From a virus, in the IMG/VR virus record IMGVR_UViG_3300036852_000461, positions 1 through 55,787 of that record: a stretch of 55,787 nucleotides of DNA; one strand, given 5' to 3'. The position numbers and the translations under genes were made by a program. Positions within the stretch are counted from its first letter, which is position 1; every line of letters begins with the position of its first letter. This document shows, piece after piece, positions 28,785 through 50,947 of the stretch. The notes under the pieces are model-generated. The model had not been told where the DNA came from. It saw only the letters and a list, made by a program, of their open reading frames with translations, and did not search any database.

Positions 28785-28813
28785 TTGACCGTTCCAGCCA
28801 GCGCTGTTAGCGT
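28785..28813 (+). promoter_or_regulatory. Late promoter A (capsid)
   Basis: TTGACC at 28785-28790, 17-bp spacer, TAGCGT at 28808-28813. Same geometry as promoters B, C and D, each followed by the same leader. Confidence 0.7.
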
Positions 28814-28836
28814 CGGCACGTAACGCACGAGCCCGC

Positions 28837-28898
28837 CCGCGGGTGCTGACCCGTGGAGGCGACGTGATCCACGTCGTTTCCTCAGGAGGTCAGCAACG
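28837..28898 (+). ncRNA. Structured 5' leader, copy A (capsid)
   Basis: First hairpin: CCGCGGGT (28837-28844), loop GCTG, ACCCGTGG (28849-28856). Conserved joiner GGAGGCGACG. Second hairpin CGACGTG (28860-28866), loop ATC, CACGTCG (28870-28876). Shine-Dalgarno AGGAGGT at 28884-28890. GCTGACC (28845-28851) is complementary to GGTCAGC (28888-28894), which overlaps that site, so the two folds compete. RNA structure is inferred from sequence. Confidence 0.65.
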
Positions 28899-30398
28899 AT
28901 GCGCATCCTCTCCAAGCTCTGGGAGCTGTGGCTGTGGCTCCGACTCCTCACCGGCGCGGCCGTCGCTCCCCCGGCTGGCGGTCTCGCCGCAAGCTTCCGT
29001 CCGATCGGCGGCGGTGAATCCGATGCCGCGATCAAGGAACGCCTCAAGGAACTGAAGGTCGCCGCCAAGACGGCCCTGGACGCAGCCACCGAGGCGGGAC
29101 TCAACGCATCGGCGAAAACGATCGAGGTCGAAGCTCCCGACGGTTCAAAGGTCGCGGCCATGGTCGTCGAGCCCGAGCACAAGGCGGCCTACGACACTGC
29201 GATGGGGCAGTTCAACGAGCTGCAGCCGGAGATCGAGAAGCTCGAGGCACTGCTGAAGGGCCACGAGTGGGGCAACCAGCCCGGCGCGCCGTCGGTCGCG
29301 CTGGACGCAGCCGCCATCGCGGAGATCATGAAGAACGCCGGCGGGCATTCGCGCGAACGCAAGACGCTCGGGCGGATGTTCGTCGAGTCCGAGGAGTACC
29401 AGGCGGCCAAGGCCGCCAACGTTCCGCACATGCAGAAGGCGTTCGAGTTCAAGGGGACGCTTCCCGATCCAATCCTGCGCAAGGACGTGTACTCGACGCT
29501 TCCCGGCGGAGATGCGCCGTGGCAGAGCTTCGGCTCGATCCAGACGGACCCGTTCGTCGAGTCGCCGCACCGCACCCAGCGCATCCGCGATCTGTTCGGC
29601 GTGCGCAATACCAGCTCGCCGCTCCTGCGGTACTTCCGGGTGCTCGGCTACCTGGCCGAGGGCGGGGCGACCAATGCCGCCTCGACGGTCGGCCAGCGCA
29701 ACGAGGCCAACGACGGCTTCCAGAGCAAGCCGCACACCAGCCTCAAGTTCGAGCCCAAGATCGCCAACGCGGCGCGCATCGCGCACTACGAGCTTGCGCA
29801 CCGCGACGCCCTGACCGACGAGCCGCAGCTGCGCGGCATCATCGACTCCGAGCTGCTGTACGGGCTGCAGATCGTCGAGGATGCGCAGATCCTGTACGGC
29901 ACGGGGACGGGCGACGACCTCGAGGGCATCCTCACCGTCGGCGGCGTGCAGGGCTTCGTGCTCGGCACCGACGGTCCGGCACCGTCGACCGACAACATCG
30001 CCGATGCCCTGCGGCGTTCGATGACGCTGGTGACGCTCGCGGAGTTCGAAGCCACGGGCGTCGTGATGCATCCGAGCGACCTCGAGAACCTCGAGCTGTT
30101 GCGCTCGGATGGTGATGAGCGGTTCTACCTGTTCGCCGCCACTATCCAGGCCGGAGGCGAGCCGCGCGTGTGGCGCGTGCCCGTCGTGCAGTCCCAGGCC
30201 ATCGTGGCCGGGACGGCCCTGGTCGGTGCGTTCGGGCTCGGGGCGCAACTGTACGACCTCGAGCAAGCGAACATCCGCATCTCCGACCAGCACGACAAGC
30301 TGTTCGTGGAAAACGGGATCGCCATCCTGGCTGAGGAAAGGCTGCTTGTAGCCACCAAGCGTCCGGAGGCCTTCGTCCTTTGCAGCAACCTCGCGTAG
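28899..30398 (+). CDS. HK97-type major capsid protein
   Basis: A 499-residue protein. Residues 40-160 are charged and helical (AIKERLKELKVAAKTALDAA, FNELQPEIEKLEALLKG), the scaffold-like delta region removed by the protease. The HK97 fold follows: FRVLGYLAEGGATNAASTVG, PKIANAARIAHYELAHRDAL, LRGIIDSELLYGLQIVEDAQ, ILYGTGTGDDLEGILTVGGV, VVMHPSDLENLELLR, VWRVPVVQSQAIVAGTALVG and LFVENGIAILAEERLLVATK. The first 30 residues are oddly hydrophobic (LWELWLWLRLLTGAAVAPP). It is the first gene after promoter and leader A, as expected for the most abundant virion protein. Confidence 0.93.
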   Translation: MRILSKLWELWLWLRLLTGAAVAPPAGGLAASFRPIGGGESDAAIKERLKELKVAAKTALDAATEAGLNASAKTIEVEAPDGSKVAAMVVEPEHKAAYDTAMGQFNELQPEIEKLEALLKGHEWGNQPGAPSVALDAAAIAEIMKNAGGHSRERKTLGRMFVESEEYQAAKAANVPHMQKAFEFKGTLPDPILRKDVYSTLPGGDAPWQSFGSIQTDPFVESPHRTQRIRDLFGVRNTSSPLLRYFRVLGYLAEGGATNAASTVGQRNEANDGFQSKPHTSLKFEPKIANAARIAHYELAHRDALTDEPQLRGIIDSELLYGLQIVEDAQILYGTGTGDDLEGILTVGGVQGFVLGTDGPAPSTDNIADALRRSMTLVTLAEFEATGVVMHPSDLENLELLRSDGDERFYLFAATIQAGGEPRVWRVPVVQSQAIVAGTALVGAFGLGAQLYDLEQANIRISDQHDKLFVENGIAILAEERLLVATKRPEAFVLCSNLA

Positions 30399-30443
30399 TT
30401 ACCTTGCGCGAGTAGCACTGCACCGTTCTACGAGATACACTGG

Positions 30444-30462
30444 CCCCCTCCAAGTGAGGGGG
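30444..30462 (+). terminator. GC hairpin after capsid gene
   Basis: CCCCCTC (30444-30450), loop CAAGT, GAGGGGG (30456-30462): a perfect 7-bp stem 45 bp after the capsid stop. There is no T-run, so it may be a transcription attenuator or mRNA-stabilising hairpin rather than a full terminator. Confidence 0.45.
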
Positions 30463-30486
30463 TCAGTCGTGTCCAGGGATAGATCG

Positions 30487-31158
30487 ATGGTTGAGCGAGT
30501 CACCGTTACCTGCGTGAGATGCGGCAAATCGGTGCAACGGTATGCGAGCGACGTCGCTCGTCGGAAGACCCCGCGATCGTTCTGCTCGCATGAGTGCAGG
30601 AACTTGTTGGGCGCCAAACCGCGCCGAGGTGCTGAGGTGACGTGCGCGCTGCCGGGGTGCTCCAACACGTTCTACGTTGGACCGAGCAAGAAGCGGAAGT
30701 TCTGTTCAACGAGGTGCCTCAACGACTCGAACAAACGACCCCGGGACGATCGAACATGCGAGCACTGCGGCAAGGGCTTCGCAATCCTCAAATCGCAGCT
30801 CCGTTGGAACGCCGGGCGGTTCTGCTCATCGAAATGTTCAAGCGCATTCCGCTATGCAGCCACCATCGGGGTGCGTAAGAAGCGCTCCGATGGTTATGTG
30901 GACGTGCGCCAGCCCGACCATCCAGACGCGCAGGCGACGGGTTGGATCTCCGAGCATCGGCTGGTCATGGAGAAGAAGGTCGGGCGACGACTGCTCCCCG
31001 ACGAGACAGTCCATCACATAAACGGTGCGCGTGACGACAACCGGCCCGCGAACCTTGAGCTTTGGGTGAGCAGACATCCTCCCGGTCAGCGTGTCAAAGA
31101 CATCGTCGCCTGGTCGGTCGAGATGCTTTCCCGCTACGCCCCCGAACGCCTAGCCTGA
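30487..31158 (+). CDS. HNH endonuclease 4 with multiple zinc ribbons
   Basis: A 223-residue protein from ATG at 30487. Three Cys modules come first (VTCVRCGKSV with CSHEC; CALPGC with CSTRC; CEHCGKGF with CSSKC). Then an HNH domain: SDGYVDVRQPDHP, WISEHRLVMEKKVGRRLLPD and ETVHHINGARDDNRPANLEL, with the HH pair. Free-standing, sense strand, between the capsid gene and a strong terminator. Typical of a homing endonuclease placed behind a late gene. Confidence 0.85.
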   Translation: MVERVTVTCVRCGKSVQRYASDVARRKTPRSFCSHECRNLLGAKPRRGAEVTCALPGCSNTFYVGPSKKRKFCSTRCLNDSNKRPRDDRTCEHCGKGFAILKSQLRWNAGRFCSSKCSSAFRYAATIGVRKKRSDGYVDVRQPDHPDAQATGWISEHRLVMEKKVGRRLLPDETVHHINGARDDNRPANLELWVSRHPPGQRVKDIVAWSVEMLSRYAPERLA

Positions 31159-31175
31159 CTCCGCGCACCTCACGC

Positions 31176-31222
31176 GCGACGAGCCCCCGACGGACCTCTT
31201 CATCCCGCCGGGGGCTCGTCGC
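31176..31222 (+). terminator. Strong hairpin terminator
   Basis: A perfect 14-bp stem, 31176-31189 with 31209-31222 (GCGACGAGCCCCCG and its complement), loop of 19 nt, followed by AGCTTCTT. It ends the capsid transcription unit. A new promoter follows within 35 bp. Confidence 0.8.
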
Positions 31223-31253
31223 AGCTTCTTAACGTCTCGTCGCAGCGCGCTGC

Positions 31254-31259
31254 TATCCT
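31254..31259 (+). promoter_or_regulatory. -10 box for a leaderless transcript
   Basis: TATCCT ends 6 bp before the GTG at 31266, which has no ribosome binding site. The nearest -35-like sequence (TTAACG at 31229-31234) is 19 bp away, so only the -10 is convincing. It would serve the glycosyltransferase region. Confidence 0.4.
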
Positions 31260-31265
31260 CGCGGC

Positions 31266-31568
31266 GTGAGTGAAGCGCACGAGCGGCCGCGGCCCCTGCT
31301 GTTCTCGGGCTGGAAGGATGACCCGCGCAAGCCGGGGCCACCGATGGTCACCTTGACCGAGGACGTCTGGGAGATGGTTCGTCACATCAACGCCCCACGA
31401 CAGCACAGACGCCTGGTTGGGAGAGCGGGCTCGAAGATCCCGATGAGCGAAGCCGTCCGCCTCGGTTTGGTCGAACCGCAGGCCGAGCAGGCCGCGATAG
31501 AGACACAGGACATCAAGAACATTGAAACCCAAGATGTTCGCCCTCCCCGAAGGGGGCGACGCCGATGA
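31266..31568 (+). CDS. Hypothetical protein before glycosyltransferases
   Basis: A 100-residue basic protein. Contains PPMVTLTEDVWEMVRHINAP and KIPMSEAVRLGLVEPQAEQA, resembling a small ribbon-helix-helix-like or helical DNA-binding protein; not certain. Ends in an Arg-rich tail. Stop overlaps the next ATG. Confidence 0.6.
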   Translation: MSEAHERPRPLLFSGWKDDPRKPGPPMVTLTEDVWEMVRHINAPRQHRRLVGRAGSKIPMSEAVRLGLVEPQAEQAAIETQDIKNIETQDVRPPRRGRRR

Positions 31569-32071
31569 GCAGGATACGTTCGGTGTCCGCCTATCCAGAT
31601 TTTATGCAGCGGGCAATCGCTCAGCTCGCTAGTAAATCGATCGTGGTCGGAGACTGTCGATTCTGGACCGGCGCACTGAATGAACACGGTTATGGGGTTA
31701 TGTCTGGGCCAGGGGGACGAGATCGAGCGCGCCCTCTCTTGGTTCATCGAGTTGCCTACGAGATTGCGCACGGCGGAATCGATGAGGAACAGATGGTCCT
31801 GCATTCGTGCGACCAGCGGCAGTGCTTTGAGGTATCACACCTGAGACAAGGGGTAGCGGCAGACAACACCCACGACATGGTCGTACGCGGCCGAGGCCGC
31901 GGCATGAATTCCGGCAAGACTCATTGCAAACGTGGACACCTGCTAGCGCTCGACAACGTTCACATCGATAAGAACGGTCGTCGCCATTGCCGCGAGTGCG
32001 GACGAATTCGTGATCACGTGCGTGTTCGTGAAAGCGGATGGGCGCGTCAGCGCGCTCGTCAGGGATCATGA
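31565..32071 (+). CDS. HNH endonuclease 5
   Basis: A 168-residue HNH protein: CRFWTGALNEHGYGVMS, LVHRVAYEIAHGGIDEEQ, VLHSCDQRQCFEVSHLRQG, and a C-terminal THCKRGHLLALDNVH plus CRECG zinc unit as in HNH 1. ATG overlaps the previous stop. A free-standing nuclease at the head of the glycosyltransferase cassette. Confidence 0.85.
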   Translation: MSRIRSVSAYPDFMQRAIAQLASKSIVVGDCRFWTGALNEHGYGVMSGPGGRDRARPLLVHRVAYEIAHGGIDEEQMVLHSCDQRQCFEVSHLRQGVAADNTHDMVVRGRGRGMNSGKTHCKRGHLLALDNVHIDKNGRRHCRECGRIRDHVRVRESGWARQRARQGS

Positions 32072-32111
32072 AGGGTGCTGTCCCGCATCGAGTCGGTCTC
32101 GGAGGGAACGG

Positions 32112-32693
32112 ATGAGCGTGACGGTCGTCACACCCTCCATCCCGTCGCGGCGCGAGATGCTGCTTGAGGCCATGGCCTCGGTCGACGAGCAGACGCTTGC
32201 GCCCGCAGCTCACATCGTCGTGATCGATCACGCCGGGATTGGCGGCGAAACGACCCGCAATCAGGGTCTGGACGCGGTGCGCACGGAATGGGTCGCCTTC
32301 CTCGATGATGACGACAGGTTCCTGCCGCAGCATCTCGAACGTCTGGTCGCTCATCAGCAGGCCACCGGAGCCGACCTCGTCTACCCCTGGTTCGAGATGG
32401 ACGGGATCACAGACGAGCTAGGCTGGTTCGGCTGGTTCGGCAAGGAGTTCGACGGCGACGTCCTGCGCACGTCCAACTACATCCCGAGCACGACCCTGGT
32501 CCGGACCAGCCTCGCGCGCGAGGTCGACGGCTTTCCGACGCTCGAATCGAAGGCGTGGCCGTTCGACCACTCGGCCGACTGGGGCTTCCTGCTCCGCCTG
32601 CTCGATGCCGGTGCGATCTTCTCCCACCTACCCGAGAAGACTTGGATCTGGCGGCGCTGGCGCGGCAACCTCGGCGGAAGGAACTGGCGGTGA
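32112..32693 (+). CDS. Glycosyltransferase family 2-like (1 of 4)
   Basis: A 193-residue GT-A enzyme. VTVVTPSIPSRREMLLEAMA at the start, HIVVIDHAGIGGETTRNQGL and VAFLDDDDRFLPQHLERLV near 63-80 with the DxD nucleotide-sugar site. AD-rich end ADWGFLLRLLDAGAIFSHLP. Good ribosome site (GGAGGGAACGG). It starts a run of four overlapping transferase genes. Confidence 0.85.
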   Translation: MSVTVVTPSIPSRREMLLEAMASVDEQTLAPAAHIVVIDHAGIGGETTRNQGLDAVRTEWVAFLDDDDRFLPQHLERLVAHQQATGADLVYPWFEMDGITDELGWFGWFGKEFDGDVLRTSNYIPSTTLVRTSLAREVDGFPTLESKAWPFDHSADWGFLLRLLDAGAIFSHLPEKTWIWRRWRGNLGGRNWR

Positions 32694-33499
32694 CGGTTCT
32701 CGTCGCCACAACAATCGCCGGCTGGTGCTGCGATGGCATGAAGGAGTTGTCGTGGCTTCGGTCGGCCGAGTTGATGCGCGAGCACTCGCCGGTCGACCTG
32801 GAGTTCTTCTGCGCCATTCAGCACGACGATGCCCATCCCGGCATCCCCTCGGAGTGTGCATCCCTCGTTGGGCGACTCAGCGATGTGGTTCCGAGCGTCG
32901 TGGATCGTGAGCGCCTGTCATGGTGGCTGTTTTCGATCGACTCCGAGGCGTGGAGGCCGACGACTCGCGACCGTCTCATCGGCATCACCACCGGTCGCAA
33001 TCTCATCCGTGAGTACGCGCTGCGCGACACCGACGCCACGCACGTCCTGTTCCTCGATGCCGATGTCGAACCCGACCCGATGTGCATCCCGAAGCTGCTC
33101 GAACTCGAGCATCCCGTCGTCGGTGGTGACGTGCCGTCGTATTGCTTGGCAGGTCCACGTGTGCTCTGTCGCAACGGCCACACACGCCAGAAGTTGCCGC
33201 GAGGGAAGGCAGCGTACGTCGATGGGGAGGAGACCGAGTACTGCTCATATGTTCGGAGCTACGGGGTCGTGTGTGATCCCCTCGCCGTTCACGTCCAGGA
33301 ACACTGGAACACCGCAGGTTTCCTCCTCGTCCGACGCGATGTCCTCCGTCAGGTCGCATGGCGATGGGACCCCGACGAGACGATCACCGACGACCCGTGC
33401 TTCGCGCAGGACGTCGAGCGCGCAGGGTTCGGCAAGACGTGGGTGCGCAAGGATTGCATCGGCAAACACGCGCGGCTCATCCCCGTCGAAGCGCGATGA
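32690..33499 (+). CDS. Glycosyltransferase, GT-A fold (2 of 4)
   Basis: A 269-residue protein from GTG at 32690. TTGRNLIREYALRDTDATHV, then LFLDADVEPDPMCIPKLLE near 120 with the DAD metal site, and a Cys-containing acceptor part (YCSYVRSYGVVCDPLAVHV). GFLLVRRDVLRQ and DDPCFAQDVERAGF near the end match the GT-A acceptor/base region. Overlaps both neighbours. Confidence 0.8.
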   Translation: MTVLVATTIAGWCCDGMKELSWLRSAELMREHSPVDLEFFCAIQHDDAHPGIPSECASLVGRLSDVVPSVVDRERLSWWLFSIDSEAWRPTTRDRLIGITTGRNLIREYALRDTDATHVLFLDADVEPDPMCIPKLLELEHPVVGGDVPSYCLAGPRVLCRNGHTRQKLPRGKAAYVDGEETEYCSYVRSYGVVCDPLAVHVQEHWNTAGFLLVRRDVLRQVAWRWDPDETITDDPCFAQDVERAGFGKTWVRKDCIGKHARLIPVEAR

Positions 33500-34194
33500 T
33501 CTACGCGGTCATTCCCGTCAAGGATGAAGCCGCACTCGCGTGCAACGTGGTCGCGCTCGCCATCCGTGAACGTGATGTCTACGTGCGGGTCTGTGACAAC
33601 GACTCGACCGAATCCACCCGCAGCGCTCTGAAAGAGTTCGGCAGCGAGCGGTGCGAGGTCATCGACGCGGCAGGCAAGGGTCTGTACCAGATGTGGGACG
33701 AAGCATGGTCGGCTGCCCACCAGCAGAGCGCCGGCGAGCCATACGAGATCGCCTTCCTCAATTCGGACATCGACTTCCTGCCCTGCACGCTGGCCGCGAT
33801 GCGCTACCTGCTCCGGCGCGAGGGCTTCGATGCGGTCTGTCCCAACTACCAGCGGCGCGTCAGCGAAGGCACCGGCGTCTTTCCCGAGCACACCGTGGCT
33901 GTCGGCGTCCACACGGTGCATGGTTCCTACCGTCACGGGGGTCTCGCTGGCTGGTGCTTCATGGTGCGCGGCGAACTGCGCGATCGAGGAATCAAGGTCG
34001 ATACGTCCTTCCGCTGGTGGGCGGGCGACGATGATCTCTTCTTCCAGATCGAGGAGGCAGGCGGGAAGCTCGGCATCATCGAGGCGCTTCCGCTCGACCA
34101 CATCGGCGAAGCGACAGCGCGGCATTACCCCTGGACCGAAACTGCGAAGGCTCGCGACATGGCGCGCCTGCGTACCAAGTGGGGCACGCGGTGA
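33496..34194 (+). CDS. Glycosyltransferase, GT-A fold (3 of 4)
   Basis: A 232-residue protein. IYAVIPVKDEAALACNVVAL, VRVCDNDSTESTRSALKEF, IAFLNSDIDFLPCTLAAMRY (donor site near 86-95), GLAGWCFMVRGELRD and WWAGDDDLFFQIEEAGGKLG. This order of motifs is that of family 2-like transferases. Sugar donor and acceptor unknown. Confidence 0.85.
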   Translation: MIYAVIPVKDEAALACNVVALAIRERDVYVRVCDNDSTESTRSALKEFGSERCEVIDAAGKGLYQMWDEAWSAAHQQSAGEPYEIAFLNSDIDFLPCTLAAMRYLLRREGFDAVCPNYQRRVSEGTGVFPEHTVAVGVHTVHGSYRHGGLAGWCFMVRGELRDRGIKVDTSFRWWAGDDDLFFQIEEAGGKLGIIEALPLDHIGEATARHYPWTETAKARDMARLRTKWGTR

Positions 34195-35342
34195 GGATCC
34201 TGTTCGTCTCGTCCGATCAGGGCGGCTGCCGCTATTACCGCTGTCTGCTCCCCGCCCAGGAGCTCAGTCGTCAAGGCGGCCACGAGGTGCTCGTCGCCGG
34301 CTCCCTCGCCCAACTTCGGTCCGGCGAGATCGTCGCGCCGTCGGCAGACGACCCCCGAACCTTCACACGCGGGTTCGAACTCGTCGTCCTGCAACGCTGG
34401 ATGCATCAGGATGCAGCCGAGGTCACACGCATGGCGCGAGCGTACGGTCAGATCGTCATCAACGACGTGGACGACTGGTTCTTCGGCATTCCGACCTCGA
34501 ATGCAGCCTTCCGCGGGTCGCACAAGTCGAACGACCCGACGTGGAACATCGAGCATTACCGACGCGTCCTCGCAGCGTCGTCCGCACTCACCGTCTCCAC
34601 GCCCTATCTCGCTGAGCGCCTGACGTCCCTGGGACGTCCGGTCTACACCATCCGCAACCACATCGACATCGAGCGCTGGACGCCGGCGACGGTCGCTCCG
34701 AGGTCACTCGTCCTGGGATGGGTCGGACACATGGCGCATCGCGCGGCAGGAGACTTGGGGCAACTCGCCGGGGTGCTCGGCCCGTGGATGAGCAGATATC
34801 AGCATGCACGGTTCCTGCACGCCGGATCAGATGGTGAAGCGGATCACGAAGCGATGCTGAAGCTGCTCGCGGTCACACCCGATCGACTGATGACCCGCGG
34901 GCTTCGCAACATCCGGTTTCTGCCCCAACTCATTCACGGTATGGACATCGGCCTGGCACCACTCGAGGAATGCCCCTTCAACTTCGCCAAATCAAACGTG
35001 AAGGTGCTCGAGTACGGGGCAGCGGGCGTACCCGCGATCGCGTCGGATCGGCCGGAGTATCGGCAGTTCGGTGCCGTGGCGCTCTGCAAGACCGCCTCCG
35101 ACTGGACGGCTGCGCTGGACCGCCTGGCCGATCCCGGCGAGCGTCTAGCGGCTGCTGTGGCCGCCCGCGCGCGCGCCAGGGAGTTCGACATCCGCGCCGG
35201 CTGGTCACAGTGGGAGTCGGTCTACGAGCGTGTGATCGCCGATGCAAAGGGCGAGAGCCTCGGTTCACCATCACGCCCATCCCTGATCGTCCCCGCCTCA
35301 TCGTTCCGGCGTCGCAAGCCCAAGAGGCGCGCGAGGACCTGA
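34191..35342 (+). CDS. Glycosyltransferase, GT-B fold (4 of 4)
   Basis: A 383-residue protein from GTG at 34191. N-domain RILFVSSDQGGCRYYRCLLP; C-domain LGWVGHMAHRAAGDLGQLAG, LPQLIHGMDIGLAPLEECPF and VLEYGAAGVPAIASDRPEYR near 272, the E-x7-E-like donor motif of GT4-type enzymes. The tail is Arg/Lys-rich. With its three GT-A partners it could build a short glycan on a virion protein or on DNA. Confidence 0.85.
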   Translation: MRILFVSSDQGGCRYYRCLLPAQELSRQGGHEVLVAGSLAQLRSGEIVAPSADDPRTFTRGFELVVLQRWMHQDAAEVTRMARAYGQIVINDVDDWFFGIPTSNAAFRGSHKSNDPTWNIEHYRRVLAASSALTVSTPYLAERLTSLGRPVYTIRNHIDIERWTPATVAPRSLVLGWVGHMAHRAAGDLGQLAGVLGPWMSRYQHARFLHAGSDGEADHEAMLKLLAVTPDRLMTRGLRNIRFLPQLIHGMDIGLAPLEECPFNFAKSNVKVLEYGAAGVPAIASDRPEYRQFGAVALCKTASDWTAALDRLADPGERLAAAVAARARAREFDIRAGWSQWESVYERVIADAKGESLGSPSRPSLIVPASSFRRRKPKRRART

Positions 35343-35346
35343 GTCG

Positions 35347-35375
35347 TTGACCGGGTCGGCATGCGCTCCTACGCT
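35347..35375 (+). promoter_or_regulatory. Late promoter B (fibre)
   Basis: TTGACC at 35347-35352, 17-bp spacer, TACGCT at 35370-35375; begins right after the glycosyltransferase stop. Confidence 0.75.
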
Positions 35376-35394
35376 TGGACCGTCTGACGCGAGG

Positions 35395-35457
35395 CCCCGG
35401 GTGCTGACCGCGGGGAAGCGACGGGCGACGACCTGGTCGTCTGCGAAAGGTCAGCGC
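35395..35457 (+). ncRNA. Structured 5' leader, copy B (fibre)
   Basis: First hairpin CCCCGGGT (35395-35402), loop GCTG, ACCGCGGGG (35407-35415, one bulged G). Joiner GGGGAAGCGACGG. Second hairpin GACGAC (35427-35432), loop CTG, GTCGTC (35436-35441). GCTGACC (35403-35409) pairs with GGTCAGC (35449-35455). The ribosome site is weaker than in copies A, C and D (GAAAGGT). Confidence 0.65.
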
Positions 35458-35493
35458 GTGTTGCCTTCCCCCGTCCGTCTGGTCGCTATCTGA
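35458..35493 (+). CDS. 11-residue leader peptide coupled to fibre gene
   Basis: At the position where the other copies have their gene start, copy B has GTG and an 11-codon frame (LPSPVRLVAI after the start) whose TGA overlaps the fibre ATG as TGATG. Translation of the fibre gene is probably by coupling to this peptide. Confidence 0.4.
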   Translation: MLPSPVRLVAI

Positions 35494-38474
35494 TGCGCGC
35501 CAAGTTCCGTGACGCTGTCCTGGATCGCCGCGGGCATGGCATCGAGGCGACGATCGAGGTGCGCGAGCCCGGAACGACAACGCCCGTCGCGGCTGCGCTG
35601 TACGACGAGGCTGGCAACGTCCTCGCCAATCCGATCACCGCGAATACCGCCGGCGAGTTCGAGTTCTATATGGACGACGCCCAGCGGGTCGACCTCTTCG
35701 TCTCGAAGGACACCTTCACCGCAGAGACGCAACAGGTGGACGTTCTTGGCCCCGACCCCGCGCCCGTTCAGTCCGTCTTCGGCCGAACGGGCGACGTCGT
35801 TCCCCAACTGGCCGACTACAACGGCTTCTTCCTCACTCCGGCAGAAGGCGATGCCGCCTACGATCCCTTCGGTGCGGCTGCGTCAGCACTGTCGACCGCC
35901 GAGTCCTACATCGACACATCAGTTGCGAACTACGTCCCGCTCTCGCAGAAGGGCGCCGCGAGCGGAGTCGCAACACTCGACTCGGGCTCGAAGATCCCCA
36001 TCACGCAGCTTCCCGCCCTCGCCATCACCAGTACGTCGGTCGTCGCGTCGCAGGCCGCGATGCTTGCCCTGACGGCCCAGGAGGGTGACGTCGCGATCCG
36101 CAGCGACGAGAAGAAGACGTACATCCTCTCGACGAGCGACCCGACGCAGCTCGCGAACTGGCTGTGGTTGCAGACGCCCGACGACGCGGTGTCGAGCTTC
36201 AACGGCCGCGTCGGCGCCGTGATGCCTCTCCAAGCCGACTATGACGGGTTTTTCTTGACTCCGGCCGAGGGTGATGCTGCTTATCTCGCCAAGGGTGCGT
36301 TGACGGACGGTTCCGTGCTCTTCGCGGCTAGCGGTCAGGTGCAGCAGAATAACGCGCATCTGTTCTGGGACGACGCGAAGAATCGTCTTGGGATCGGGAC
36401 AGCCGCGCCCCTCGTACGACTGCACGTATCGGATGGAGCTTCCGTCGCATCGGCGCTTCTCACGACGGACGCCATCTCGCTCACCGACCAGTCCGGCAAT
36501 CTCACAACGGCATCGCTCATCTCCGTGACGGATGTGGCCGGGACGCGCGGCGTCGTCAAGGGCGTCCGGGCGCGAGGAACGCTCTCCGCCCCAACCGTCC
36601 CGAATACCGACGACGAGGTGTTCGCTTTCCTGGGCTCCATCTACGACGGAGCCACGACGCAAGGTACGGCTGGCGTGTTCTTCCGCGTGGACGGGGCCGT
36701 TTCGGCGGGCGTGGCTCCCCAACGTATCTCGTTCGTCACGAGCGCGACGACAGCCGCCGCGCGCACCGAGAAGGTCACGATCAAGTCCGACGGCAAGGTC
36801 GGCATCGGGATCACCGAACCGACCTCCATGCTGCACGTCGCCGACTCGTCGAGTTCGTCTCCTCGCGGGATCACCAGCGGGCAGTACAACACGGGCCCGG
36901 ACGGCGCGCGCCTGCACACGCGGAAGGCACGAGGGACCTATACGACACCTCTGAGCGTTGCGGCGGGAGACACACTCGGTCGCTGGGTCGCCGACGGATA
37001 CGACGGCACGAACTACCTCGATATGGGTGCCATCGCCTTCGAGTCAGAAGGGACGGTCGCCTCGACACGCATCCCGACGCGCCTCGTGTTCCTCACGGCT
37101 ACCAACGCGGCGCCGTCCGTTCTCACGGAAGCCATGCGGATCACTTCCGACCAGTGGGTTGGTATCGGGACGACGGCCCCGCTCCGGCGGTTGGCCGTTG
37201 CCGATGCGAGCGCGAACACGATGGTCGTCCTGCGTTCCGTGGCGAGCGGCGCGGCCACCAACGGGCTGACGATCGGCCGCATCTACTTCGGAACGAACAG
37301 CACCAGCGCTCCGGGAGCGGTACTGGAGACGGCGAGCATCCTCGGCGTCGCGACCGAAGCGTGGACCGTCGGTACGGCGCAAGGATCAGGCGTCCGCATC
37401 CAAGGAACCCAGAACGGCACCACATCGACCATCAGCGTCCTCGAGAGCAGTGGGCGTCAATACCTGTGGATCGACCCAGACGCGAATAGCACGAGTTCTG
37501 CGCAGGGAATCGCATTCGGAACCTCACGAGACACGCAGATATACCGATCGGGGGTCGGCATCGTTCTGCTCAACAACAGCCTCGGGATCGGCCAAAGTCG
37601 ACAGCGGCTCGCCGCCCTGAGCGTGCTGCCTCTCGCTACCCCCAACGGCGGTTCGACCGCGCTGGCTTCCGGTGGCGTCATCACCGCCCAGACCGTGACG
37701 TACGGGACCACGGCCCAGACGGGCGACGTCTCCGCCTTCCTCATCGAGCAGCAGACCTACGCTTCCACCCCCGCCTCAACCGTCATCCCCGATCTCTCCG
37801 GACTGCGCATCAAGGGTCCTGTCACTTCCGGCGCTAACGCTTCTGCCACGAGGACGCAGGCGTTGCTCATCGAGACGGGGGCGGATGCCAACAACGGCGT
37901 GGTGATCAGGCAGAACTCGGGCACGCAGTCCGCTCCATTGATCTTGTTCCAGAATTCCTCGGCCGGGACCATCGCGACCATCGGTGGAGACGGGAAGTTC
38001 ACCAGCAAAGATGGAACCGCAACGACTCCGGGCCACGCCTTCATCAGCGAGACCACCCTCGGCACCTACCGCATCTCCGCTGGCATCCTCGGATTCACCG
38101 CCAACGCCGAACTCGCCCGCATGTCCGCCTCTCTGTTTCAGCTCGCCGCAGGCGTCATGCTCACGCTCAATCAGGACACCTCGGCTGCCCAGACCATCGT
38201 GGCGGGCACAACGAACGGTCTCAAGATCGGAACGGCAACAAACCAGAAGCTCGGCTTCTTCAACGCAGCGCCTGTTATTCAGCCAGTGCGCGCCGCGACA
38301 CTGACCAACAACGTGACGGTCGGGGGAACCGACGACAGGATCGACGACATCACGGCTGCATCCGTGGACACGACGGCCGCCAAGCTGACCGACACGCGCA
38401 ATGCGATCTACCAGTTGGCGCGAGCTATCCGCGCTCATGATGTTGGACTTCGCGCACTTGGGCTGCTGAGCTGA
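35493..38474 (+). CDS. Tail fibre-like virion protein
   Basis: A 993-residue protein. Residues 10-80 look like a beta-sandwich attachment domain (GIEATIEVREPGTTTPVAAA, TAGEFEFYMDDAQRVDLFVS). Two copies of FGR/NGR...ADYxGFFLTPAEGDAAY occur near 95-127 and 233-266, linkers common in tail fibres. Four GIGT-type beta-repeats (GIGTAAPLVRLHV near 299, then near 435, 555 and 696) typify phage receptor-binding fibres. The C-terminus is a short coiled helix (TAAKLTDTRNAIYQLARAIR), probably trimerising. It lies upstream of the connector genes, an unusual position for a fibre. Confidence 0.8.
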   Translation: MRAKFRDAVLDRRGHGIEATIEVREPGTTTPVAAALYDEAGNVLANPITANTAGEFEFYMDDAQRVDLFVSKDTFTAETQQVDVLGPDPAPVQSVFGRTGDVVPQLADYNGFFLTPAEGDAAYDPFGAAASALSTAESYIDTSVANYVPLSQKGAASGVATLDSGSKIPITQLPALAITSTSVVASQAAMLALTAQEGDVAIRSDEKKTYILSTSDPTQLANWLWLQTPDDAVSSFNGRVGAVMPLQADYDGFFLTPAEGDAAYLAKGALTDGSVLFAASGQVQQNNAHLFWDDAKNRLGIGTAAPLVRLHVSDGASVASALLTTDAISLTDQSGNLTTASLISVTDVAGTRGVVKGVRARGTLSAPTVPNTDDEVFAFLGSIYDGATTQGTAGVFFRVDGAVSAGVAPQRISFVTSATTAAARTEKVTIKSDGKVGIGITEPTSMLHVADSSSSSPRGITSGQYNTGPDGARLHTRKARGTYTTPLSVAAGDTLGRWVADGYDGTNYLDMGAIAFESEGTVASTRIPTRLVFLTATNAAPSVLTEAMRITSDQWVGIGTTAPLRRLAVADASANTMVVLRSVASGAATNGLTIGRIYFGTNSTSAPGAVLETASILGVATEAWTVGTAQGSGVRIQGTQNGTTSTISVLESSGRQYLWIDPDANSTSSAQGIAFGTSRDTQIYRSGVGIVLLNNSLGIGQSRQRLAALSVLPLATPNGGSTALASGGVITAQTVTYGTTAQTGDVSAFLIEQQTYASTPASTVIPDLSGLRIKGPVTSGANASATRTQALLIETGADANNGVVIRQNSGTQSAPLILFQNSSAGTIATIGGDGKFTSKDGTATTPGHAFISETTLGTYRISAGILGFTANAELARMSASLFQLAAGVMLTLNQDTSAAQTIVAGTTNGLKIGTATNQKLGFFNAAPVIQPVRAATLTNNVTVGGTDDRIDDITAASVDTTAAKLTDTRNAIYQLARAIRAHDVGLRALGLLS

Positions 38475-38974: not shown

Positions 38975-39010
38975 AGGGGTCCTCGGTAACGTCAAGAAAA
39001 GAGGAAGCGA

Positions 39011-39337: not shown

Positions 39338-39344
39338 CCAAGCG

Positions 39345-41406: not shown

Positions 41407-41418
41407 GCGAATGCGATG

Positions 41419-41440
41419 GAGTGACAGAATCTTGTCACTC
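41419..41440. promoter_or_regulatory. Perfect 8-bp inverted repeat over the -35 of promoter C
   Basis: GAGTGACA (41419-41426), GAATCT, TGTCACTC (41433-41440). The right arm covers the -35 box TTGTCA. No T-run, so either an operator or a terminator hairpin of the preceding unit. Confidence 0.6.
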
Positions 41441-41460
41441 ACACGGAAACGTCGTACGCT
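41432..41460 (+). promoter_or_regulatory. Late promoter C (major tail protein)
   Basis: TTGTCA at 41432-41437, 17-bp spacer, TACGCT at 41455-41460. The longest distance to its leader among the four copies. Confidence 0.75.
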
Positions 41461-41516
41461 TCACCCGTCCGGGGCTGAGCAGAACCGGATGTGAGCACGA
41501 CCCCGAAGCATGGTCC

Positions 41517-41583
41517 CCGGGTGCTGACCCGGTGGAAGCGAAGGGCGCCAGTCCAACGCATCCGCTAGCAGGAGGTCAGCAAG
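41517..41583 (+). ncRNA. Structured 5' leader, copy C (major tail protein)
   Basis: First hairpin CCGGGT (41517-41522), loop GCTG, ACCCGG (41527-41532). Joiner GGAAGCGAAGGG. The second hairpin is weak here; AGCG and CGCT could close it. Shine-Dalgarno AGGAGG at 41570-41575. GCTGACC (41523-41529) pairs with GGTCAGC (41574-41580). Confidence 0.6.
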
Positions 41584-42165
41584 GTGGTCAACGCACAAGA
41601 GACCGTCGTCTTCGACATCTGCGACGGCAAGGTCTACGAGATGTACGCCGATACGGCTGGAGCTTCGGCAGGCCCGTCATACGGAGAGGCCATCGATCTG
41701 CCTGGCATCGGGGCTCTCTCGGGCTTCGACCCGCAGATCGTCTCGGCCGAGCTGAAGGGCGATTGCCGTGTCATCGCCCGTCAGGGGCGCATCGACAGCG
41801 TGAACGCGTCGATCACCTACGGCAAGATTGCGATCCCCGTCCTCACGGCCCTGCACGACATGCAAGCGTTCTCGAGCGGGCTGATCGAGGGCGCGCGCAT
41901 CAAGGGTGGTGCGGAGATCAAGTACTTCAAGTTCACGGGCACCATCACCGGCACCGATGCTGGCGTGGACGACGTACAGGTCATCTTCTACAAGGCCCAG
42001 CTCACCTCCGAAACGCTGTTCGATCAGGCGAGCGATCAGTTCGGCCAGCCGAAGTTCGACATGAGCGCGATCGGCATCGATAGCGGCGCGGCCGAAGGCG
42101 TGGGGCCCTATCCCGGGCTCGAGGTCGCAACGCTCGCGGACATCCTCATCACCTCGGAGGCCTAG
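41584..42165 (+). CDS. Major tail protein
   Basis: A 193-residue protein from GTG at 41584. TVVFDICDGKVYEMYADTAG, LSGFDPQIVSAELKGDCRVI, INASITYGKIAIPVLTALHD-like core, IKYFKFTGTITGTDAGVDDV and DMSAIGIDSGAAEGVGPYPG. Beta-rich with the order seen in tail-tube proteins. Lies between the tail terminator and the G/T chaperone genes and has its own promoter and leader. Confidence 0.85.
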   Translation: MVNAQETVVFDICDGKVYEMYADTAGASAGPSYGEAIDLPGIGALSGFDPQIVSAELKGDCRVIARQGRIDSVNASITYGKIAIPVLTALHDMQAFSSGLIEGARIKGGAEIKYFKFTGTITGTDAGVDDVQVIFYKAQLTSETLFDQASDQFGQPKFDMSAIGIDSGAAEGVGPYPGLEVATLADILITSEA

Positions 42166-42167
42166 CC

Positions 42168-42871: not shown

Positions 42872-42872
42872 C

Positions 42873-45791: not shown

Positions 45792-46834
45792 AGCTGCCGG
45801 CCTATGCATGCCTGGACGGCACCGAGATCATGAACGAGGTCCGCACCCAGACCTATCTGAATGCCGGCCTGGTCAAGACCGTGCGGGGCTTCGGGCGAGT
45901 GTGTCCGGCCCTGAACGACGGATTCGTGTCCCCGACCGACGATCCGGCGCCCTGGTACGACTCGGACCATCCTGAGTCGGCTGGGTTCATGGGCATCCTC
46001 GCCGACGGTGTGGAATTGTCGCCGGTCCTATCGGCTTCGAGCACGCCTCGTCTGGACGAGGGTGCCGTGATCGGAGCAGAAGTACATGGTGCACGGGGCG
46101 TGCTCGTGCAGGGCTGGATGGTCGCCACCGATCAGCGCGCGATGTATTGGGGCGAGCGCTGGCTGAATGAGGCACTCCGTGGGACGAACTGCGGCTGCGG
46201 TGGCAGCGATCTCGAGCTTCTCTCGTCGTGCTCGCTTGGCGGCGCACCCTACGACGACGATTTCCGCTTGCTGCCGGGAGCGAAGCTCATCTCGCCTCCC
46301 ATCCCTTCGCCCATAGAGATCCTCTCGGACTGCAAGACGCAGAACGTCCAGTTCCAGATGCAGGCTCCTTCGCCGTGGCTGTTCTCGCTGCCGACGGTGG
46401 CTGTCGACGACGTGACGGTCGTGGATGGGTCGGGCGATGGCGTGGTGTTCGCCACCGAGGACTGGCGCAGCGAGGCGCTGGTCATCACGGTCTCGACCGA
46501 TGCGGGTTTCGATGACGGGGCGATGATCACCATCACCGAGTCGCTGGATGGCGCGACGTGTCCCGAAGATCGCGTGGCCGCCTCGGCCATCTACGAGCTT
46601 CTCGACCTGGCACCTGAATCCTCACTTGAGATCGACGCGATGCGCACGGCGGTGACCTACGCCAATCCCACGAGCCATCTCAACGTCCCAGGCTTCGACA
46701 AGCTCTCACGAGAGACGCGCGTGCCTTTCTGCTGGCCGACGATCCCGCGCTGCAACACCGTTTGCGTCTATCTCACCAACGAGACCGGCGATGACGTGGT
46801 GTGGAGGGTCGAGCGCCGCAAGCGGGAGCTATAA
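45788..46834 (+). CDS. Minor tail protein (distal tail-like)
   Basis: A 348-residue protein from GTG at 45788. Mixed beta (WMVATDQRAMYWGERWLNEA, NVQFQMQAPSPWLFSLPTVA, VVFATEDWRSEALVITVSTD, HLNVPGFDKLSRETRVPFCW). First gene after tape measure, the distal-tail slot. A Cys cluster NCGCGG near 140 is odd and may bind metal. Confidence 0.75.
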   Translation: MKLPAYACLDGTEIMNEVRTQTYLNAGLVKTVRGFGRVCPALNDGFVSPTDDPAPWYDSDHPESAGFMGILADGVELSPVLSASSTPRLDEGAVIGAEVHGARGVLVQGWMVATDQRAMYWGERWLNEALRGTNCGCGGSDLELLSSCSLGGAPYDDDFRLLPGAKLISPPIPSPIEILSDCKTQNVQFQMQAPSPWLFSLPTVAVDDVTVVDGSGDGVVFATEDWRSEALVITVSTDAGFDDGAMITITESLDGATCPEDRVAASAIYELLDLAPESSLEIDAMRTAVTYANPTSHLNVPGFDKLSRETRVPFCWPTIPRCNTVCVYLTNETGDDVVWRVERRKREL

Positions 46835-47887
46835 ATGTCGTACTCAGCCGGCGGCACCCTCGGTTGCGGCTCCTGGAGGGCGCGCCTGCTTGAGCGCGGC
46901 GGAAGTCGGACGATCCTCGAATTGCCTGCGACCTCGGCTCGGCACACGCGGGCGCGGTCAACGTTCTCGACAGGGTCGTGCTTCGTGGCCCTGTCCGAGG
47001 TGCCGGACTACTGCTACGGGCCACTGGCAAAGATCAGACCGTGGGAGCACGAGCTTGAGCTGGTGCGGGACGGTGAGACGAAGTGGCTCGGCCCGATCTC
47101 GGAGGGTCTGGGATTCTCACGCGCCGGCGTGGCCATCCGTGCGCGGGACTGCTCGCACTGGGGCGAGCGACGCGTGCATCCGGTCGACCGCAACATCACC
47201 GACGATCTCGCCCGCATCTTCGAGCTGTTCGTGGCCGACGCCATGCTCGAGGACCCCTCACCAGGTCTGAGCGTGGATCTCGTCGAACTCGGCACAATCG
47301 GTAACCGGACGGTGCTGCGCAGCGAGGCCAAGTACGTGGCCGATTCGCTTCGCGAACTCGCCGACAGCGGCCTCTATTACACGACGCTGCTGCGGCAGAT
47401 CCGCGTGCGCCCGGACGGGGTAGGCGAGACGGTCGGGACCCTGCTCGATGCCCATGTGCAGATCGAGTCCGAAGCGACCCTGGACGGACTGTCGTTTGCC
47501 TCGGAGTTCATCGTGGTCGGTGAGCAGCCTGCGGACGCCACGAGCAGCACGCCAATCGTAGGACGCGCCGGCGGTTTCGACGAGCGCACGGGTCTGGTGC
47601 AGATCACCGATCGCCAGACGGGCTCGAACAACACCCTCGATGCCACCCATGCCGCGCAGGCGGGTCTGGCCGAGGCGAGCACCGAGCCGGTGGCCCTACC
47701 GGTGAAGCTGCAGCAGACGACCCCTCTCGATTACGACGATCTCGTACCCGGCAACCACGTCCCGGTATTGCTGACGCTCGGTGTCTATGTCCTGAACGAA
47801 ACTCTGACCATCGACTCGATGTCGATGGATGCCGCACTGAGCGAGCAGATCACGCTGAACCTCGTGCGCAAGGTAGAGGCGGCCTGA
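46835..47887 (+). CDS. Minor tail protein (Gp37-like)
   Basis: A 350-residue protein starting right after the upstream stop. WRARLLERGGSRTILELPAT, RIRPWEHELELVRDGETKW-like core, ISEGLGFSRAGVAIRARDCS, and VGTLLDAHVQIESEATLDGL then LPVKLQQTTPLDYDDLVPGN. Resembles ReqiPepy6 Gp37-type tail-tip proteins. Probably the tail hub. Confidence 0.75.
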   Translation: MSYSAGGTLGCGSWRARLLERGGSRTILELPATSARHTRARSTFSTGSCFVALSEVPDYCYGPLAKIRPWEHELELVRDGETKWLGPISEGLGFSRAGVAIRARDCSHWGERRVHPVDRNITDDLARIFELFVADAMLEDPSPGLSVDLVELGTIGNRTVLRSEAKYVADSLRELADSGLYYTTLLRQIRVRPDGVGETVGTLLDAHVQIESEATLDGLSFASEFIVVGEQPADATSSTPIVGRAGGFDERTGLVQITDRQTGSNNTLDATHAAQAGLAEASTEPVALPVKLQQTTPLDYDDLVPGNHVPVLLTLGVYVLNETLTIDSMSMDAALSEQITLNLVRKVEAA

Positions 47888-48354
47888 TGCCCCGTCGCCC
47901 GCGAGCGCTGCCCGATCGTGTCGCACATCTGGAGCAGCTGTTTCGCAACCTGCGCACGGGTGCTGGTGTACCCGGTGAGACGGGAGCGACCGGATCCCCA
48001 GGCGCAGACGGTGTGGGCAAGGCGGCCTACGACTGGACGAACAATGCCACTCTCGTTCGCGTCGGCTTCGGGCAGCGCAAGTATGCCGATCGCGACGGAA
48101 CGATCCTCTACGTGCGAGCCGAGCGCAGCGCAGGCGATGGCAGCGGCGCGGCAACCTTCGATGTCACGAAGAACGGGGTGTCGATCTTCCCGTCCGCGAC
48201 CAAGCCGACCATCCCCGCATCCTCATTCCTCGGTACGGAGCGCGTGCCCGATGACGTCGACTTCGTCAAGGGCGATTACTTCCAGATTCACACTGAGACG
48301 ACGGGCAACGGCACCGGACCGGTGGTCGTGACCATATTTTTCCAGGAGGTCTAG
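47887..48354 (+). CDS. Structural protein with collagen-like segment
   Basis: A 155-residue protein. Residues 10-24 form a short helix (RVAHLEQLFRNLRTG), then collagen-like GVPGETGATGSPGADGVG, then a beta domain (RVGFGQRKYADRDGTILYVR, AATFDVTKNGVSIFP, YFQIHTETTGNGTGPVVVTI). Helix, collagen rod and beta head suit a trimeric tail-tip or fibre piece. Confidence 0.7.
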   Translation: MPRRPRALPDRVAHLEQLFRNLRTGAGVPGETGATGSPGADGVGKAAYDWTNNATLVRVGFGQRKYADRDGTILYVRAERSAGDGSGAATFDVTKNGVSIFPSATKPTIPASSFLGTERVPDDVDFVKGDYFQIHTETTGNGTGPVVVTIFFQEV

Positions 48355-48360
48355 ATGGCG
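48344..48360 (+). other. First copy of a ribosome site and start, cut off by HNH insertion
   Basis: AGGAGGTCTAG then ATGGCG: a perfect start for the next structural gene, but the frame runs only into antisense HNH sequence. A second, imperfect copy (AGGAGGTAAACGCCATTAGC) at 48831-48850 precedes the real coding region. Confidence 0.6.
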
Positions 48361-48813
48361 TTATCGAAGACCGCGCGCGCGACGCCGTCGCTGAGCGAGT
48401 TTGGTCCTCTCGCGATGGCAGATCGAACAGACTCGGTGATTCGGGCGCGAGGGGAAGAATGTGTCATATGGATGCCCCTTCGGGCAATGCGTCTTGCGTG
48501 TTTCCTTGCTCCGTCGCTTCCGCGCGGAGTCGCGCATGTTGTCGCTCCGCGTTCCGAGGAACAGGTGCGCCGGGTTGCAGCACGCCCGGTTGTCGCATCG
48601 GTGACAGACGTGCAGGCCGTTTGGGATCGGACCATAGACCAATTCGTACGAGACGCGATGCGCGCCTACGGCTCCGCCGTATTTCCCCCCTCTCCCAATA
48701 GCTCCATAACCATTCGCGTACCTTGCGCCAGTCCACTCCCAGCATTGCGTCCAATGGCGCTTATCGACCTTGGGCCAGAACCGTTCCTCGATAGGTCGAG
48801 CGGGACAGGACAT
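48361..48813 (-). CDS. HNH endonuclease 6, antisense
   Basis: A 150-residue HNH protein on the minus strand: [60 protein letters not shown], and the C-terminal [13 protein letters not shown] plus [11 protein letters not shown] zinc unit. Inserted precisely between a ribosome site/start and the gene it once served. Stop at 48361-48363 lies in the third codon of the orphan start. Confidence 0.9.
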
Positions 48814-48844
48814 CGGCAGTTGTTATCACGAGGAGGTAAACGCC

Positions 48845-49831
48845 ATTAGCTTCGATTCAGGAGTGATCACCAGCGCCACCCCGCACGCGGCGCTCGCGAC
48901 GAAGATCAAGGCGCTTTTCGGTGGGTCGGGCGTCGCCAACTGGTCGTTCGTCGAGAACATCCCGGCCGGGACGGGGGCAGGTCAGTCGGGCTCGGCGTCC
49001 TACTCGATCGACGTCTACAAGTGCGCGGGAAGCGGGACCGACGCGAACGACGCGGCGACGGACTGGTACGTAGCGTGGCGGCTGCCGGTGACGGACGGTG
49101 CTGTGAGTTCCAATTTCAATGTGTTCGAAGACTACGAGGGTGGTACGAACAAGCGGTTCAAGCGTCCAGTTGCAGGGCCCGCTGTTCAAGCCCCAACGGG
49201 TACGGGGTTCTGGCGTTCTGACACTTATGCCGCCGCTGCAAGCGTGGTCGGTGTCCAGCAGGAGACCATTTTCACGCTCAACACGACTGGCTTCTCGTAT
49301 TGGATCAAACTGACAAAGAATGGCATCTGGGTAACGTGCCAAGTCGGTAGCACTCTCGGAACCCACATCGCTCTGCTCGGTGACACGATGGTCGCCTCAG
49401 GTGTCGCGACGGACTCGTGTCCACTCTTTGCGCACGGAGCCGGAGGCGGTTCGGGTATCGAAGCGTCCAGAGAACCTGGTGTGACTGACGGTACGAAAAC
49501 AAAATGGAACTATGGAGAATGTGCTCCTTGGACTCTGTTAGCAGGAAGCAACGCACCAAACAACAACGATCTCTTCCAAGGGAATAAGGTTGCCCTTTCA
49601 CGCATCTGCGTCCTGAGGACAGGGGGAGCAGGAGTGATCAACCTCATTGGTGCCTTCCGGGCATTGCTGAAACCAGAATTGATCCTCTGTTTCCAGACGG
49701 GTGGGACGGTGAACATCGGCGACACGATAGTCATCAACGGCGTCACTTACGTTGTGATGTGGCCCGGTACGGGAACGTTCGGAGCCTTCATAGTCACGAA
49801 CGCCTTCGTGTTGGTGACCCCTCAAACCTGA
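48845..49831 (+). CDS. Structural protein with displaced start
   Basis: About 328 residues (ISFDSGVITSATPHAALATK, LFGGSGVANWSFVENIPAGT, YKCAGSGTDANDAATDWYVA, VTYVVMWPGTGTFGAFIVT). Beta-rich tail or baseplate-type protein. Start is unclear: AGGAGG (48831-48836) is followed 8 bp later by ATT (48845) where comparison with the orphan start (ATG GCG TTA) puts codon 3. GTG 48863 and the upstream ATG 48770 (inside antisense HNH) are alternatives. Confidence 0.7.
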   Translation: MSFDSGVITSATPHAALATKIKALFGGSGVANWSFVENIPAGTGAGQSGSASYSIDVYKCAGSGTDANDAATDWYVAWRLPVTDGAVSSNFNVFEDYEGGTNKRFKRPVAGPAVQAPTGTGFWRSDTYAAAASVVGVQQETIFTLNTTGFSYWIKLTKNGIWVTCQVGSTLGTHIALLGDTMVASGVATDSCPLFAHGAGGGSGIEASREPGVTDGTKTKWNYGECAPWTLLAGSNAPNNNDLFQGNKVALSRICVLRTGGAGVINLIGAFRALLKPELILCFQTGGTVNIGDTIVINGVTYVVMWPGTGTFGAFIVTNAFVLVTPQT

Positions 49832-50139
49832 TGGCCGTCCTCACGCCGGGCGAGAGCGTCTTCGTGGGTGACTACGCCGATGCGGGCGATGCGACCGTGC
49901 AGGCGGGAAGCGCCAGCTCGGGCTGGCAGGTCTGGGACAGCTACACCTTCGTCCCGTCCGCGACGTTCGCACTCACACCAGGCGAGGCCGTCTTCGTCGG
50001 GGACTACGCGGACAAGGACGACGAGACCGTCAAGGCTCACGAGGCCGACTCAGGATGGAAGATCTGGGGCGACTACGTCTTCATGGGCGAGTTCCCGACC
50101 AACAAGCCGTGTCCGGACGTGTGGGCGGTCATCGGATGA
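49831..50139 (+). CDS. Structural protein of two repeats
   Basis: A 102-residue protein made of two like halves: LTPGESVFVGDYADAGDATV ... GWQVWDSYTF and LTPGEAVFVGDYADKDDETV ... GWKIWGDYVF. Probably two small beta domains from an internal duplication. TGATG overlap with the preceding gene; its stop ends the tail operon before promoter D. Confidence 0.7.
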   Translation: MAVLTPGESVFVGDYADAGDATVQAGSASSGWQVWDSYTFVPSATFALTPGEAVFVGDYADKDDETVKAHEADSGWKIWGDYVFMGEFPTNKPCPDVWAVIG

Positions 50140-50146
50140 AGGACGG

Positions 50147-50175
50147 TTGAGTCCAGCACCCGTCTGACGTAGCCT
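50147..50175 (+). promoter_or_regulatory. Late promoter D
   Basis: TTGAGT at 50147-50152, 17-bp spacer, TAGCCT at 50170-50175; followed by leader D. Confidence 0.7.
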
Positions 50176-50192
50176 GACCTGGTAGCCACGGC

Positions 50193-50258
50193 CCGTGGGT
50201 GCTGACCTGCGGAGGCGACGAGGCCGTTTCGTCGTGTTCCGAAGGAGGACCCACCCGG
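50193..50258 (+). ncRNA. Structured 5' leader, copy D
   Basis: First hairpin CCGTGGGT (50193-50200), loop GCTG, ACCTGCGG (50205-50212) with two G-U pairs. Joiner GGAGGCGACG. Second hairpin CGACGA (50216-50221), 7-nt loop, TCGTCG (50229-50234). Shine-Dalgarno AGGAGG at 50243-50248. Here ACCCAC (50249-50254), just after that site, matches the 5' arm GTGGGT (50195-50200) instead of the loop. Confidence 0.65.
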
Positions 50259-50924: not shown

Positions 50925-50947
50925 CGGGAAGGAGCATAACACACCCC

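Follow-up and report, generated by a model that had tools for sequence, protein, structure and literature searches.

A conserved hairpin leader ahead of the capsid gene in a large group of tailed phages of probable actinobacterial hosts, used four times in one virus record

What is the short promoter-plus-hairpin module that occurs four times between positions 28785 and 50258 of the virus record IMGVR_UViG_3300036852_000461, and what might it do for the genes that follow it? The stretch analysed here (the window) is the entire record, 55.8 kb of DNA with 64.6% GC. Among the late products of a tailed phage none is more abundant than the capsid protein, and to our knowledge little has been learned about how its level is controlled in actinophages. 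From comparison of sequences we take the module to be a conserved capsid leader shared by many tailed phages of actinobacteria, with a probability of about 0.9. The fuller statement, that it is a 5'-terminal promoter-plus-leader module which would raise or time capsid expression and whose apex would be read by a factor, we hold at even odds.

The capsid protein encoded after the first copy has its nearest named relatives (39-45% identity) in the Gordonia phages Chidiebere, GMA6 and DalanDe and the Brevibacterium phage Cantare. The hairpin core GGTGCTGACC is present in the gap before the capsid gene of Gordonia phages Chidiebere, GMA6, DalanDe and ScarletRaider, and is absent from that gap in Cantare, which has the same capsid family. 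Among the carriers are Gordonia phages with capsid proteins just 41-44% identical to that of the window. An alignment search of IMG/VR gave 80 capsid loci, nearly all of which carry GGTGCTNACC or a near variant just upstream. The core hairpin was found upstream of the capsid gene at 186 loci (the same contigs are repeated among them), or 88 non-redundant entries of which the window is one, and removal of near-duplicates left 87 leaders besides the window. When IMG/VR was scanned blindly with the hairpin pattern GGYTGGGTGCTNACCTRAGCC, 107 stretches were recovered where about one is expected by chance (an estimate from the size of the collection); a gene of this capsid family lies directly downstream on the same strand in 105 of the 106 that could be read, and the remaining one ends ~150 nt past the pattern. 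In the 87 leaders the hairpin stands ~50-75 nt upstream of the capsid gene, and the distance from core to start codon is tight, at 50-118 nt (median 64). WhiB genes, present in 17 of 26 records, suggest that the hosts are actinobacteria. The core was not found at the expected place before the prophage capsids L250-L258, and the more distant capsid families (OneDirection, JanetJ and Raymond7) have just 21-58 nt between the upstream gene and the capsid gene.

The module is essentially a one-copy element. The 38 whole records searched have essentially one strong copy apiece, the exception being the window with its four. The closest relative found, the L032 contig, has terminase, portal, capsid, a glycosyltransferase, neck and major tail proteins in common with the window; it carries the element once (GGTACTGACC), and its major tail gene has no copy. 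Second copies on the L055 contig (L208, a pentapeptide-repeat coding sequence) and the L072 contig (L209) were rejected as coding sequence. In GMA6 a GGTGCTGACC hairpin also stands 41 nt before the portal start (L210 position 484), a possible second copy that perhaps reflects further spread.

The core itself is conserved as follows: positions G1, T2, C4, T5, A7 and C8 are invariant, G0, G3 and C9 are nearly so, and T, C or G can stand at the last of the four loop positions. The nearly invariant apex GGU-GCUN-ACC mostly has a G-U pair and a bulged purine beneath it and stands on a lower stem whose sequence varies while its pairing is kept. In an ungapped alignment of 54 distinct hairpins 88.2% of the cells are paired, against 82.0 ± 0.8% when shuffled, and there are 19 two-sided changes, against 6.5 ± 2.2 when shuffled. 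G-U pairs are tolerated, two-sided changes occur in six of the eight pairs (one of these changes replaces G-C by C-G within the upper stem), 32 seeds gave a similar result, and shifting the partner strand by 1-3 columns destroyed the pairing. Covariation among homologues had been named as a test of the hairpin in a preliminary description of the window, and it was found. The core also persists between groups whose capsid proteins are 41-48% identical, an observation that kinship among the seeds does not affect.

A promoter-like signal accompanies the hairpin in much of the clade. The box AGTTSCACTA lies ~48-61 nt upstream of the hairpin core in 59 of the 87 leaders (4.2 expected; loci L018-L207 and related loci), and is thus not universal; the 1.65 Mb of loci contain 19 exact copies, 17 of which are just upstream of the hairpin, and in 58 cases TANNNT starts 28-29 nt past the start of the box. 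Box and TANNNT together are a candidate phage-specific late promoter of freshwater and marine actinophages, almost exclusive to the capsid gene, and because they stand just upstream of the hairpin the transcript should start close to it. Between hairpin and ribosome site the sequence contains 7% G, compared with 24% before other genes with comparable gaps, and this G-poor linker of ~35 nt is probably open.

These features suggest the following course of events: the dedicated promoter would start transcription shortly upstream of the hairpin, and the capsid mRNA would begin near it; the hairpin would protect or mark the 5' end; and the apex may be read by a putative phage or host factor, which would give high or timed late capsid expression. 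In most phages the hairpin is followed by the G-poor linker and then by a strong ribosome site, and such a probably open linker with a strong ribosome site argues against simple repression. In the window phage the module is used at the capsid, fibre and major tail genes and at a fourth site that now precedes an antisense HNH gene, with the linker replaced by GC-rich sequence able to form a second hairpin; that fibre and tail genes have it too speaks for an expression module. The leader of T7 gene 10 (capsid), whose effect would be comparable, has a 5'-end hairpin that raises stability or translation, open sequence and a strong ribosome site behind a promoter for a single-subunit polymerase. 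The leaders described here resemble it in being capsid mRNA leaders with hairpin, open stretch and strong ribosome site, but there is no sequence relation, and here the apex is nearly invariant across a phage clade. In its most specific form, a family of protein-binding hairpins at the 5' end of capsid mRNA through which a dedicated phage or host factor sets output, and which serves here as a portable module co-regulating fibre and tail, the account is tentative, and we regard it as possible though somewhat doubtful.

Several points weigh against this account. The trans-acting factor is conjectural, and the traces expected in the sequence from a repressor are very similar. The 5' end of the RNA is placed from the position of the -10 alone. 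Capsid identity within the main group is fairly high (73% for the median pair, with four clusters falling below 70% among those compared) and the seeds are related, so that the shuffle counts above overstate independence and the leaders are not all independent. When full leaders are folded as single sequences other pairings are often favoured, and the upper stem has a probability above 0.5 in 29 of 87; low folding probability is consistent with a hairpin that requires a partner or forms co-transcriptionally, but with weak structure too. Finally, the linkers in the window have 23-41% G (7% in the clade) and are GC-rich and foldable, so the open linker does not apply there.

The four copies in the window (A-D) lie where the preliminary description had placed them, and the -35, 17-bp spacer, -10, GGTGCTGACC and joiner GG(A/G)(A/G)GCGA that it gave can all be read in the sequence. 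They and the genes nearby are as follows:

28785..28813, + strand: copy A promoter, -35 TTGACC (28785-28790), 17-bp spacer, -10 TAGCGT (28808-28813)
28837..28856, + strand: copy A hairpin 1, CCGCGGGU-GCUG-ACCCGUGG, core GGTGCTGACC at 28842-28851 (19.4 bits with model R1; z -2.9)
28855..28881, + strand: copy A joiner GGAGGCGA and hairpin 2 (-18.8 kcal/mol, z -5.6)
28884..28894, + strand: copy A ribosome site AGGAGGTCAGC, its GGTCAGC (28888-28894) complementary to the loop and 3' arm of hairpin 1
28899..30398, + strand: major capsid protein gene (phrog_10, 4e-50; tblastn to Gordonia phage capsids)
35347..35375, + strand: copy B promoter, TTGACC, 17-bp spacer, TACGCT
35395..35415, + strand: copy B hairpin 1, a single G bulged out, core at 35400-35409 (24.4 bits; z -2.1)
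35422..35443, + strand: copy B hairpin 2, weakly supported (z -1.6)
35449..35455, + strand: copy B ribosome-site GGTCAGC
35493..38474, + strand: tail fibre gene (phrog_26941 and tail fibre families)
41432..41460, + strand: copy C promoter, TTGTCA, 17-bp spacer, TACGCT, with an additional stretch before the core, which is 60 nt away
41514..41536, + strand: copy C hairpin 1, a single U bulged out, core at 41520-41529 (21.5 bits; z -4.2)
41570..41580, + strand: copy C ribosome site AGGAGGTCAGC
41584..42165, + strand: major tail protein gene with GTG start (phrog_4971, 9e-13)
50147..50175, + strand: copy D promoter, TTGAGT, 17-bp spacer, TAGCCT
50193..50212, + strand: copy D hairpin 1, core 50198-50207 (22.4 bits; z -2.3)
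50211..50240, + strand: copy D joiner and hairpin 2, moderately supported (z -2.1)
50242..50255, + strand: copy D ribosome site, AAGGAGG then ACCCACC, without GGTCAGC
50283..50954, - strand: HNH endonuclease gene, antisense to the open reading frame (ORF) that leader D would feed (PF13392, 1.7e-8; homologues in other phages)

Scanning of both strands of the window found the exact promoter pattern, TTGA-N19-TA[CG][CG]NT in A, B and D and its TTGTCA variant in C, only at the four leaders; the clade box AGTTSCACTA has no match in the window at up to one mismatch, and the TTGA/TTGT -35s are present instead. There are five exact matches to GGTGCTGACC in the window, of which four are the leaders. 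Model R1 scores the four copies at 19.4-24.4 bits and the next best site, within the tape-measure gene, at 14 bits, but its seed included the four window copies and these scores are therefore not independent, whereas the position at the capsid gene in other phages is. Copy A has the GGU-GCUN-ACC apex on a paired lower stem 57 nt before the capsid ATG on the same strand, inside the 50-120 nt taken as the criterion; copies B-D precede genes other than capsid. Stem 1 folds in all four copies better than shuffled sequence (z -2.1 to -4.2) through differing bases and G-U pairs, as had been proposed, with a one-base bulge needed in B and C. The second stem, said to pair in A, B and D, is clear in A and moderate in D but weak in B, and in C (z -0.7) hairpin 2 is indistinguishable from shuffled sequence. 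The two-hairpin layout is local to the window phage, and elsewhere a G-poor linker takes the place of the second hairpin. The joiner pattern of the window had four matches in IMG/VR, every one within coding sequence.

Which genes do the copies serve? Capsid after A, fibre after B and major tail protein after C agree with the preliminary description, which was wrong in naming one more structural protein after D. The + strand ORF there (50259-50939) matches no family and its codon usage is poor, and the HNH endonuclease is encoded on the other strand; for these reasons copy D may be a leader severed from its gene by a homing endonuclease. The HNH gene at 50283-50954 stands between leader D and the next forward gene. 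HNH endonuclease genes are dispersed over the late region, at 30454-31158, 31565-32071, 48361-48813 (-) and 50283-50954 (-), two of them on the opposite strand, and the homologues found in other phages are also matched by the ORF at 14000-14791. The ribosome site of copy B serves an 11-codon ORF (35458-35493, GTG at 35458) and not the fibre gene directly. Its TGA overlaps the fibre ATG at 35493 (TGATG), and translational coupling between the two is possible. A leader peptide was considered and set aside: the frame of copy A continues without a nearby stop, and a short ORF precedes the gene in B only. The rest of the window holds genes for the large terminase, a portal/head-morphogenesis protein and the maturation protease, and for glycosyltransferases, connector proteins, tape measure, endolysin and serine integrase in addition to the genes listed. 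Its capsid protein has an N-terminal extension (28899-29034) of ~40 residues compared with its relatives, with a Trp/Leu-rich start. A DNA megablast of the window against known phages gave no match, nor did a search with the single capsid protein.

The strongest rival to an expression module is feedback by a virion protein: the hairpin would be a translational operator to which a phage protein (capsid, scaffold or other) binds at the apex, lowering translation when that protein is plentiful, and its spread to the fibre and tail genes would couple their levels. We think this unlikely. RNA hairpins bound by proteins typically show such an invariant apex, a lower stem that varies but stays paired, and a common bulge below the upper stem, and in nearly all the phages the hairpin is unique to the capsid gene. 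The coat-protein operator of MS2 and Q-beta is likewise a small hairpin, whose loop is conserved, whose stem is variable and which has a bulged purine nearby; it is tied to coat-protein synthesis and overlaps the replicase start. The hairpin of these double-stranded DNA phages, however, whose binder is putative, lies ~50-60 nt upstream of the start codon, away from the ribosome site, with a G-poor and probably open linker between; in the window it also precedes fibre and tail genes, and Cantare keeps the capsid family without the element.

The preliminary description had instead proposed a switch that would set translation: either hairpin 1 forms, or an alternative fold in which a portion of it pairs with the ribosome site. 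The complementarity that it described is present, over 7 bp of GCTGACC with GGTCAGC in A, B and C and as the ACCCAC match in D. Mutually exclusive folds are energetically possible but uneven: the blocked form is favoured by ~4 kcal/mol in A, the two forms are near equal in B and C, and in D, from which GGTCAGC is absent, the best fold disfavours hairpin 1 by ~6 kcal/mol and pairs its 5' arm with ACCCACC. Similar complementarity occurs in Gordonia (ATGACCAGCACC), in L127, L134, L178, L179 and L184 (AGCACCCATG), and in L029, L069, L084, L099 and L101, but the registers vary among lineages, and the nearest relative, the L032 contig, lacks the GGTCAGC complementarity. Both arms were compared with the ribosome site and linker, using shuffles and a control segment. 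For the loop and 3' arm against the ribosome-site region the mean shuffle p was 0.62 (92 leaders), and for both arms with dinucleotide shuffles p was ≤0.05 in 14 of 91 leaders versus 8 of 91 for an unrelated control segment, in few lineages and in differing registers. The mean p over the clade is about 0.5-0.6, no more complementarity than shuffling produces. Since the complementarity is not enriched over the clade, what is conserved is the hairpin and not the switch; as a conserved function the switch is unsupported, and as an explanation of the module it is improbable. A lineage-specific switch in the window phage and a few other lineages is possible.

Some individual leaders deserve mention here. 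At the end of the L101 leader the hairpin 3' arm and the next bases (TTACCTCGTG) match CACGAGGTAA over the ribosome site for 10 bp, the clearest natural case of ribosome-site pairing. In L127, L134, L178, L179 and L184 and at the Gordonia capsid genes, the hairpin's GGGTGCT or GGTGCTG has a complement in AGCACCC right before the ATG, or in ATGACCAGCACC, and the loop ends in G in all of these leaders.

Could the hairpin act on RNA polymerase instead? The HK022 put and lambda nut sites are RNA hairpins just after phage promoters, and an antitermination site of the put or nut-boxB type, read by RNA polymerase or a phage factor and loaded at each late promoter, would fit an element that directly follows each promoter in the RNA sense, with one per promoter in the window. 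Most of the phages, however, carry the hairpin just once, at a capsid promoter that lies internally, and have none at the start of the late region, the clade has no second conserved hairpin, no boxA-like partner was seen and no known Rfam family applies, which makes this quite improbable. That the module acts at the DNA level, as a downstream promoter element or an operator read in double-stranded form, is very improbable, for although the element has a fixed place near a dedicated promoter and a GGT/ACC inverted repeat, its conserved loop GCT is asymmetric, its lower stem takes G-U pairs and bulges, and its changes are compensatory.

Is the element already known under another name? The start-associated elements of cluster K mycobacteriophages are SAS, 13 bp GGGATAGGAGCCC at the translation start in 11-19 copies per genome and confined to the non-structural half, and ESAS, which has 17-bp inverted repeats (PMC3203893). 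They are alike in being a repeated actinophage element near start codons with an inverted-repeat part upstream. The present leaders differ in that a GGTGCTNACC hairpin lies ~60 nt upstream, usually as a single copy at the capsid gene; GGGATAGGAGCCC is absent from the translation starts of the four window leaders, which precede capsid, fibre and major tail genes and not non-structural genes. The earlier view of a promoter and hairpin leader ahead of virion genes, distinct from SAS and ESAS, is thus supported by sequence and gene context, and at capsid genes it proves widespread. Rfam 15 gave 0 matches at the gathering threshold in the window and four relatives, with chance-level hits only at E up to 10. 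A literature search, which reached few subscription papers, found no description of a capsid-leader hairpin, and Weinberg 2010 (PMC2864571) makes no mention of capsid. RNA leaders of this general kind are known, but the present family appears to be undescribed.

With a near-fixed loop across capsids that are 41-48% identical, and a place before the capsid gene in essentially every carrier, the hairpin offers a search for its possible reader a defined RNA as target. It can also serve as a tag by which this phage group is recognised, and it might supply expression tools for actinobacteria with a strong late leader.

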